From NCBI GenBank assembly GCA_020630015.1, contig JAHDCF010000001.1:19946-83945 (forward strand): a DNA stretch of 64,000 nucleotides. Direction: 5' to 3'. Made by a program: the position numbers and the translations under genes. The stretch comes from Planktomarina sp. (lineage in GTDB: Bacteria; Pseudomonadota; Alphaproteobacteria; Rhodobacterales; Rhodobacteraceae). Each line of letters opens with the position of its first letter. Within the stretch, counting starts at the first letter, position 1. Below, piece after piece: positions 47,621 to 52,735 of the stretch. The notes below the pieces were generated by a model. It had not been told where the DNA came from, searched no databases, and worked only from the letters and a program-made list of their open reading frames with translations.

Positions 47621-48067
47621 ATGGGCGCTGACGCAGATCTTATCAAGCTTTATTCTTCCAAAATTTTGGCTTTGGCAGCTGATCTTCCCCATGCTGGCAG
47701 ACTTCAATCCCCGCAAGGTTCAGCCATGTGCAGAAGCCCCCAATGCGGTTCAAAGGTCACTGTTGATCTGGTTTTGGATGACGCTGGCAAAATTCAATCC
47801 TTCGCCCAAGATGTGAAGGCTTGTGCCTTAGGTCAAGCAAGTGCCGCCATTTCTGGCGCTGTTATCTTTGGGGCAACACAAGCAACTGTTCAAAAAGCAC
47901 GAGACGAACTGGCAGAAATGTTAAATGGCGGCGGTGAAATTCCAGCTTCACCCTTTGAAGGATACGAAGTTTTAACCCCAGCGGTTGATTTCAAAAATCG
48001 CCACGCCTCAATCCTTTTGACATTGGATGCGACACTGGCAGCAATGGATGATGCACAATCCGAATAA
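47621..48067 (+). CDS. IscU/NifU-like Fe-S scaffold protein lacking the third cysteine
   Basis: A 148-residue protein of the NifU N-terminal/IscU fold. It has Cys42 (SPQCGSKVTVDL) and Cys68 (KACALGQASAA), two of the three cluster ligands. The third position, normally in a RHC motif, reads RHAS (Ala129). An additional Cys37 is present. It may therefore act differently from classical IscU, perhaps as a carrier or regulator. It lies upstream of a strong hairpin and convergent with a small SOS-type gene. Confidence 0.82.
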   Translation: MGADADLIKLYSSKILALAADLPHAGRLQSPQGSAMCRSPQCGSKVTVDLVLDDAGKIQSFAQDVKACALGQASAAISGAVIFGATQATVQKARDELAEMLNGGGEIPASPFEGYEVLTPAVDFKNRHASILLTLDATLAAMDDAQSE

Positions 48068-48103
48068 AAAAACCGCCGCACTTTGAACAATCAAAGGCGG
48101 CGG
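48066..48103 (-). terminator. Intrinsic terminator of the small-protein transcript
   Basis: CCGCCG and CTTTGA on the left (48073-48086) pair with TCAAAG and CGGCGG on the right (48091-48103) around ACAA, with a small internal bulge. Read on the minus strand, the stem is followed by seven U (A7 at 48066-48072 on the plus strand), a textbook terminator. It can also form a hairpin just after the IscU-like gene stop on the plus strand. Confidence 0.85.
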
Positions 48104-48186
48104 GCAAGTAAGCACAAAATCGCAAGGGACCCGGAAATCATTCCCATCACCAAAAGGCAGAACAGATGGGAAATAATGCGCATCAT
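48091..48186 (-). CDS. Possible second tiny hydrophobic peptide in the same transcript
   Basis: A 31-codon frame (MMRIISHLFCLLVMG, then ISGSLAILCLLARRL) ends inside the terminator stem. It would be a single membrane helix with a basic tail. I see no Shine-Dalgarno before the ATG, and GC and length allow chance, so this is a weak call. Two 16-base near-identical copies (48145-48160 and 48181-48196, CATCAyCAAAAGGCAG) flank its start region with a 36-base period. The remaining sequence 48187-48242 shows nothing I can name. Confidence 0.2.
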   Translation of the reverse strand: MMRIISHLFCLLVMGMISGSLAILCLLARRL

Positions 48187-48242
48187 CAAAAGGCAGTAGG
48201 AAGATGCGCGCCGGTGCGTCTGTGCAGGCAGAAAAGCGAAAA

Positions 48243-48356
48243 TTAGAAGTTTGGAATGAACAACCCGATGTAAAGCATTGACATCAAAGCGAAAACACCA
48301 ATCGCATCTTTTATTGCGGCGACGGTTTCTGGGTTCTTTTTAAGTGCATTTTTCAT
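48243..48356 (-). CDS. 37-residue single-pass membrane protein, SOS-box controlled
   Basis: An intact small gene too short for usual ORF lists. The protein has a basic, helical N-terminus (MKNALKKNPETVAAIKDA), one membrane segment (IGVFALMSMLYIGLFI) and a short end (PNF). A GAGAG Shine-Dalgarno-like sequence lies six bases upstream of the ATG. A LexA-type direct repeat is 66 bases upstream, and a strong terminator follows on the same strand. Size, topology and SOS control recall Caulobacter SidA, a 29-residue inner membrane division inhibitor, though there is no sequence likeness I can assert. It lies between the IscU-like gene and recG. Confidence 0.65.
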   Translation of the reverse strand: MKNALKKNPETVAAIKDAIGVFALMSMLYIGLFIPNF

Positions 48357-48421
48357 GGGCTGCTCTCAATCATTTTTTCTTTTGTTGCGTCTTTGTTCTC
48401 ATTTTCACCCTCATTTGTAAA

Positions 48422-48446
48422 GAACTTTTTAAGAACATTTGTGAAC
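48422..48446 (-). promoter_or_regulatory. LexA (SOS) box of alphaproteobacterial type
   Basis: GAAC (48422-48425), seven bases, GAAC (48433-48436): on the minus strand this is GTTC-N7-GTTC, the alphaproteobacterial LexA consensus. A third GAAC at 48443-48446 follows at a spacing of six. The box lies 66 bases before the 37-codon gene and just after the recG stop, with -35/-10-like sequences (TTCACA, TTTACA) bracketing it on the minus strand. Confidence 0.6.
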
Positions 48447-48452
48447 AAAATG

Positions 48453-52735
<4,283 letters not shown>

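Follow-up and report, generated by a model that had tools for sequence, protein, structure and literature searches.

The window (the whole 64,000-nucleotide stretch of a Planktomarina sp. contig that was analysed) carries, on the minus strand between recG and a convergent IscU-like gene, what appears to be one small transcription unit. Its features and neighbours, in the direction of transcription of the unit, are as follows.

48453..50543, minus strand: recG, immediately upstream of the peptide gene (list of open reading frames)
48422..48446, minus strand: putative LexA operator array GTTC-N6-GTTC-N7-GTTC (sequence, conservation in the family, and the same box near lexA and recA starts)
48446-48443, minus strand: the extra GTTC, at N6 before the N7 pair (sequence)
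48436-48422, minus strand: the N7 pair, GTTC-TTAAAAA-GTTC (sequence)
48416..48421, minus strand: -35-like TTTACA abutting the operator (conserved columns 15-20 of a promoter alignment of 108 sequences)
48384..48398, minus strand: second, inverted putative LexA box, GAAC-N7-CAAC, near the expected transcription start and conserved in the family
48363..48367, minus strand: ribosome-binding site GAGAG, positions -11 to -7 (sequence)
48243..48356, minus strand: gene for a 37-residue single-helix protein, presumed to be in the inner membrane (ATG start, 37 codons; homologues, selection, AlphaFold2)
48109..48232, minus strand: structured 3' UTR RNA, closing stem P1 around hairpins P2-P4 with CUGCC loops (models R1 and R2, fold z, covariation)
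48066..48104, minus strand: predicted intrinsic terminator, hairpin and U tract (fold; counterparts in relatives)
47621..48067, plus strand: IscU-like gene, the convergent neighbour (list of open reading frames), also beside many relatives' copies of the peptide gene

The gene order on the minus strand over 48453-52654 is ligA-like, recG, SOS peptide, with DNA-repair genes directly upstream of the peptide; the first of these is presumably ligA, as we named it from its translation. A second hydrophobic open reading frame (48091-48189, 32 aa) overlaps the RNA region and is regarded as a chance occurrence, by judgement rather than by a dedicated test.

A sequence-only reading had proposed the 37-codon minus-strand frame as a gene, and comparison with relatives bears this out. 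Used as a query, the 37-residue sequence found matches in 18 of the 19 other Planktomarina genomes (all but G006), and in 24 of 61 genomes in total (E <= 1). When 14 homologues were combined in a profile (A1), it matched 203 of 246 Rhodobacteraceae genomes, drawn nearly one per genus (E <= 0.1), and some genomes that A1 did not match have a diverged copy in the equivalent position, for example in L236 and L237. With a broader profile built on 55 rows (A4), matches were obtained in 60 of 61 genomes searched in the order, all from Rhodobacteraceae. Outside the family, a class-wide profile search gave 10 weak matches in 237 genomes (E <= 0.05), which is about the level of chance; thus, no homologues were found beyond Rhodobacteraceae. 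Matches were also not identified in Pfam or NCBIfam (five homologues, E <= 10), and three peptides gave a single match in PHROGs (E 0.079). Plasmid and phage collections yielded no homologues, in searches whose sensitivity is low because one short homologue was the query for each.

We read 109 loci, one per genus, taken from the better-scoring of the 203 rather than drawn at random. All 109 contain a syntenic homologue with recG on the same strand no more than 700 bp upstream; a median of 113 bp (range 68-623) separates the start codon from the end of the recG alignment. The peptide typically has 40 residues (76 of the 109 loci). Over the last 28 codons of 18 genus sequences (153 pairs; one N-containing sequence was dropped), the pN/pS ratio is 0.20 in frame, which is not neutral, and reaches 1.26 and 1.86 in the two alternative forward frames. 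From synteny and selection we conclude that the frame is a real gene under purifying selection, and its translation is nearly certain. Two conditions that the sequence-only reading named as refuting, a lack of homologues in sister genomes and a near-neutral substitution ratio, were examined and both turned out in its favour. The GAGAG ribosome site proposed earlier lies where it was claimed to be (48367-48363, minus strand).

The AlphaFold2 model shows one helix (residues 9-36, mean pLDDT 82.4), in agreement with the single membrane helix of the sequence-only reading; insertion in the membrane is presumed from hydrophobicity. By comparison, SidA of Caulobacter has 29 residues. The family consensus is RSxxTLxxDAxGAxALxVMLxxGLHLP, and D17, G20 and L32 are invariant in the A4 alignment (55 rows); the diverged copy L236 lacks the conserved G. 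The periodicity of conservation along the helix is strongest at 100 degrees per residue; with the 109 rows anchored on D..G, p is 0.0057. This anchoring makes both residues invariant by construction, so p values were also computed without them: 0.034 for the 109 rows, and, in A4, 0.0041 with D and G and 0.029 without (10,000 shuffles for each test). The pattern suggests that one face of the helix is constrained, as expected for a helix that docks on a partner.

Upstream of the gene, the GTTC-N7-GTTC box at 48436-48422 (minus strand) is a motif that we take, from the Rhodobacter and Caulobacter literature, to be the alphaproteobacterial LexA site. In a Dinoroseobacter study, predicted LexA sites likewise fall into GTTC and GAAC consensus motifs (PMC6473078). 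A single box is weak evidence, since the pattern occurs 94 times in the 2.88 Mb genome, less often than the reversed control pattern (131). What makes it significant is conservation: 108 of 109 loci have the box between positions -180 and +15 relative to the start codon, and none of the 109 has it in an equally long control window downstream. The N6 GTTC pair is present upstream in 98 of 109 loci (1/109 in the control) and the inverted GAAC-N7-[CG]AAC in 101 (0/109), the latter as a perfect GAAC-N7-GAAC in six. The one locus that lacks the upstream box, L163, has a perfect inverted GAAC-N7-GAAC (GAACAATGCAGGAAC) in the position of the downstream box. Within Planktomarina, GTTC-N7-GTTC accompanies the peptide in 16 of 19 loci, and GAAC-N7-GAAC lies near the start of lexA in 10 of 11 loci (a different open frame was picked in the eleventh) and of recA in 11 of 11. 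Because the boxes are conserved in the family and shared with the lexA and recA starts, control of the peptide unit by LexA is very likely.

The consensus of the 108 box-aligned promoters reads GTTC-RCAAAT-GTTC-TYAWAAA-GTTC-TTTACA, followed after 13 bases by ATGAGAACAAAGGGGCAAC. A further, partly conserved GTTC occurs in many loci (L062-L185) about 10 bp upstream of the N6 repeat, that is, about 20 bp upstream of the N7 box, and the resulting series of up to four GTTC at spacings of 10, 10 and 11 bp hints at cooperative binding of LexA. The sequence-only reading had bracketed the box with -35 and -10 sequences. The first part stands, as the conserved -35-like TTTACA follows the box; the second is doubtful, as no convincing -10 was identified. 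A sigma-70 scan of both strands of 48040-48520 gave no match.

Downstream of the stop codon, a terminator-like hairpin with a U tract is present within 300 nt in 104 of 109 loci, typically about 170 nt beyond the stop. The strong terminator claimed earlier for the window appears in the minus-strand fold (~48104-48066), with counterparts in relatives, and was missed by a simple terminator scanner. Between stop and terminator are conserved CTGCC and CTGTCC motifs. The RNA analysis took the 101 loci with a hairpin below -15 kcal/mol at 90-225 nt (eight were dropped); CTGCCTG is found in 84 of these 101 UTRs and CTGTCC in 82. Up to the terminator, the RNA forms four stems that expose the CUGCC and CUGUCC loops; a UGYCC-like motif recurs four to five times in the column consensus, in conserved and mostly single-stranded copies. 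Nearly all individual folds of 12 seed sequences contain the long closing stem P1, and in folds of other examples P1 encloses inner hairpins.

A covariance model built from the 12 seeds (R1) matched 63 of 100 loci searched (E <= 0.1). All 63 matches are on the sense strand, 0-109 nt past the peptide stop (median 5). In these matches 89.8% of cells pair, compared with 63.7% in shuffled and 37-51% in slid controls; covariation is 0.534 against 0.155 shuffled, and double-sided changes occur in 29 of 29 pairs. The model was rebuilt from the 63 matches (R2) and tried on 44 loci used in neither model, of which it matched 36 (E <= 1), or 28 of 36 if we do not count eight loci that had been fetched because R2 already matched them. 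The 36 left-out sequences gave a covariation of 0.496 against 0.142 shuffled, again with double-sided changes in 29 of 29 pairs. The alignments were fitted to the structure, yet the slid controls collapse. G-U exceeds A-C at paired positions (76:35 and 42:27), which favours the sense strand. With 12 seeds, 61 R1 and 19 R2 matches (the last at E <= 0.01), the RNA is present in 92 of the 109 loci. A whole-genome search with R2 under stricter filters detected one copy each in 107 of 246 genomes (E <= 0.01) and no second copy in any of the 107, and it missed the window's own genome. R1, whose training set lacked the window copy, matches that copy in L031 (23.0 bits, E 0.0043), and the fold z of the copy is -5.0. 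R2 was trained on alignment A3, of which the copy is a member; it scores 36.4 bits there and matches nothing else in the window.

Rfam has no match within 47900-48700 of the window (E <= 1) nor over the RNA of 10 relatives (E <= 0.5). Matches to Rfam Ysr141 in L087, L138 and L069 were discarded, because they fall outside the RNA and score well short of the cut-off set for that Rfam family. The idea that the 3' UTR loops mask the peptide's own ribosome site was also set aside, given pairing energies of -21.4 kcal/mol for own and -21.7 kcal/mol for swapped combinations (101 loci). We consider it highly probable that the RNA is functional.

Taken together, the comparisons support one short mRNA with two opposed LexA boxes, the peptide and a terminator, and, in most genera read, the RNA. 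The conserved RNA thus sits in the 3' end of a presumed LexA-controlled mRNA, as in DinR-like sRNAs. The structured 3' UTR RNA and the second LexA box are additions to what the sequence-only reading described, and the locus is larger and stranger than it appeared there: a micropeptide plus, in most genera read, a structured RNA.

The two parts do not always occur together. Among the 19 Planktomarina peptide loci, the RNA is present in four (G000, G011, G013 and G019) and no R2 match follows the peptide in 14; the G003 locus was left unjudged because the contig ends. Most of the loci without the RNA encode a 47-residue peptide. In 11 Planktomarina relatives with a readable 3' region and ftsZ, the peptide is kept and no RNA was detected. 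Thus, the peptide and RNA arms are separable. In the relatives without detected RNA (L035-L049), the ftsZ site, where it was read, is mostly GCAGGTGGA and not ACAGGCGGAC.

The loops point to ftsZ as a candidate target. CUGCCUGU can form eight pairs (one of them G-U) with the family ftsZ ribosome site ACAGGCGG, which is followed most often by AC, and by ACAG in half of the RNA-positive genomes; the CUGUCC loop pairs with GGACAG. CAGGCGG occurs at the ftsZ site of nearly all family genera read (L273-L329, L407-L436) and in none of the 24 ftsZ sites from other families for which a start was recognised (of a set of 29, five had none), a distribution that suggests special translational control of ftsZ in the family.

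The letters of the site also vary with RNA status. We compared 67 genomes, one per genus, after re-deriving ftsZ starts in 81. The cut-off for RNA-positive (26 bits) was set after the scores were seen, and the scores come from searches with differing filters. With phylogeny ignored, AGGCGGAC is found in 35 of 47 RNA-positive and 4 of 20 RNA-weak genera (p 8e-5), and GGACAG in 24 of 47 and 0 of 20 (p 2e-5); AGGCGG is indifferent to RNA status (46/47 and 18/20). Left out were G003 (contig ends), G006 (no peptide found) and four genomes whose RNA locus was not fetched (G030, G034, G064 and G143). One of these, G030, counts against the association, as it has AGGCGGACAG although the stricter-filter search detected no RNA. 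A Pagel-type tree-aware test gave p 0.0036 for AGGCGGAC and 0.0099 for GGACAG (0.022 on repeat). In the control for this test, 4 of 14 FtsZ columns also reached p < 0.05, with a top LR of 13.7 against 15.6 for AGGCGGAC, so the empirical support for co-evolution of AGGCGGAC with the RNA is about 1 in 15, which we regard as weak.

Predicted pairing does not single out ftsZ. In 28 genomes, the RNA with its own ftsZ site gave -47.1 kcal/mol and with swapped sites -47.5, with no sign of matched pairs; in this comparison own and swapped pairing differ by up to ~1.2 at control offsets, and the starts of G158 and G210 were mis-set. In G171, ftsZ is not outstanding among 734 predicted ribosome sites (40 sampled stretches). 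Scored with the loop sequences of G171 itself, ftsZ comes 53rd for the 5' motif, 45th for P3, 159th for P2 and 229th for the whole RNA; a separate ranking put it 68th for P2 and P3 together. Third place for ftsZ in this genome was dismissed, since the 5' motif behind it was the family consensus, which G171 lacks; that motif in its own letters gives the 53rd rank above. These own-letter ranks lower the chances of ftsZ, and we consider it unlikely, if worth pursuing, that ftsZ is among the targets of the RNA: it is a lead, not a result.

The nearest working precedents, in our judgement, are SidA for the peptide and DinR for the RNA. SidA of Caulobacter crescentus is described, in the excerpts available, as a very small SOS-induced inner-membrane inhibitor of division (PMC4211646, PMC10907235). 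Set beside this description, the present peptide is likewise very small, presumably in the inner membrane, probably under SOS control and from an alphaproteobacterium. Of what a SidA-type protein would be expected to show, one predicted helix and LexA boxes were observed, and membrane insertion and LexA control are themselves presumed. Two differences are apparent: no structured 3' RNA is mentioned for SidA in those excerpts (PMC4211646, PMC10907235), and one is present here; and the profile of the present peptide family finds nothing above chance outside Rhodobacteraceae. DinR, by the excerpt of its description, is an sRNA from the 3' end of the LexA-controlled dinI mRNA that represses ftsZ in Klebsiella pneumoniae (PMC10907235). 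Both loci thus have a small-protein mRNA, LexA-controlled there and probably here, with an RNA element at its 3' end, and the ftsZ ribosome site, the target there, is a candidate here (PMC10907235). They differ in that DinI, a modulator of RecA filaments, is a different type of protein, that the stretch of DinR predicted to pair with ftsZ is specific to Klebsiella whereas the RNA here covaries strongly and is conserved in most genera read (PMC10907235, excerpt), and that processing and trans action of the RNA here are putative.

We tentatively prefer, at somewhat short of even confidence, a model in which the locus is a LexA-repressed SOS transcription unit, conserved through Rhodobacteraceae, whose peptide and RNA arms delay division. 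DNA damage would lead to cleavage of LexA and switch the unit on. The peptide would enter the inner membrane and there, in the manner of SidA, bind and inhibit a complex of membrane proteins, most probably the divisome; the face formed by the conserved D, G, A/S, L, L, L and P, one every 3-4 residues, may serve for the binding. The RNA, as an intact 3' UTR or as a released fragment, would pair through its C-rich loops (CUGCCUG and CUGUCC) with ribosome sites of target mRNAs, ftsZ being the leading candidate, and both arms would delay division until repair is done. A role in division is considered because of the analogy with SidA, the one-sided helix face and the weakly supported complementarity between the loops and ftsZ. 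The SidA-like mechanism proposed by the sequence-only reading thus seems plausible, and the chances that the peptide acts on division are about evenly balanced; we would say much the same of action of the RNA in trans. The most specific version, a bifunctional SOS checkpoint across most Rhodobacteraceae genera in which the micropeptide blocks the divisome and the RNA silences translation of ftsZ, is improbable.

TisB and DinQ are the main rival models. The peptide could act in the SOS response as a membrane toxin, depolarising the membrane and slowing growth, with the 3' RNA tuning in cis how stable the toxin mRNA is or how well it is translated, and its size and presumed topology fit such a toxin. 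According to the excerpts available, TisB (29 aa, PMC11449926) and DinQ (PMC3567139) are small membrane peptides, the latter SOS-regulated and single-helix, and a section heading states that DinQ does not affect filamentation (PMC3567139). The TisB/IstR-1 and DinQ/AgrB type I systems of E. coli resemble this locus in combining a small hydrophobic SOS peptide with a regulatory RNA. There, however, the peptide mRNA is opposed by an antisense RNA that is separate from it; here the conserved RNA belongs to the sense-strand 3' UTR and may disappear from a locus that keeps the peptide. An unsystematic look at the locus revealed no antisense element; the sigma-70 scan matched nothing on either strand, but it likewise misses the presumed SOS promoter. 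Most Planktomarina keep the peptide without the RNA, so the RNA is not an obligatory antitoxin. The one conserved face of the helix suggests a specific partner, and the RNA pairs at least as well with swapped 5' regions as with its own, which speaks against control in cis. On this evidence we think a toxin unlikely.

Small single-helix proteins often regulate larger membrane proteins, and the peptide might accordingly modulate another SOS membrane process (a transporter, a protease or nucleoid anchoring), with the RNA as an sRNA on unrelated mRNAs. The CUGCC and CUGUCC loops can pair with many G-rich ribosome sites, and dozens outscore ftsZ in G171; no specific partner or target is indicated, however, and we regard this account, too, as rather unlikely. 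The repeated loops might instead form a CsrB-like sponge for an RNA-binding protein, without base-pairing to mRNA. The four to five UGYCC-like copies, and the frequency of the two loop motifs among the UTRs, would suit a sponge. The loop sequences differ between hairpins, which a sponge for a single protein would not require, and we know of no RNA-binding protein of UGYCC-like specificity in Rhodobacteraceae. Such a sponge seems distinctly improbable.

In a limited look at the open-access literature, no title or abstract opening describes the peptide or the RNA, and no paper was found on how Rhodobacteraceae halt division after DNA damage; the searched protein family libraries contain no match for the peptide, and Rfam none for the RNA. 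Should the RNA prove to act in trans, it would represent a regulatory RNA under LexA control with much wider conservation than DinR (PMC10907235, excerpt), and protein and RNA arms of one response would be carried on a shared transcript. Rhodobacteraceae are abundant marine bacteria and include model phototrophs, and this locus offers one testable candidate for how they may arrest division when their DNA is damaged.
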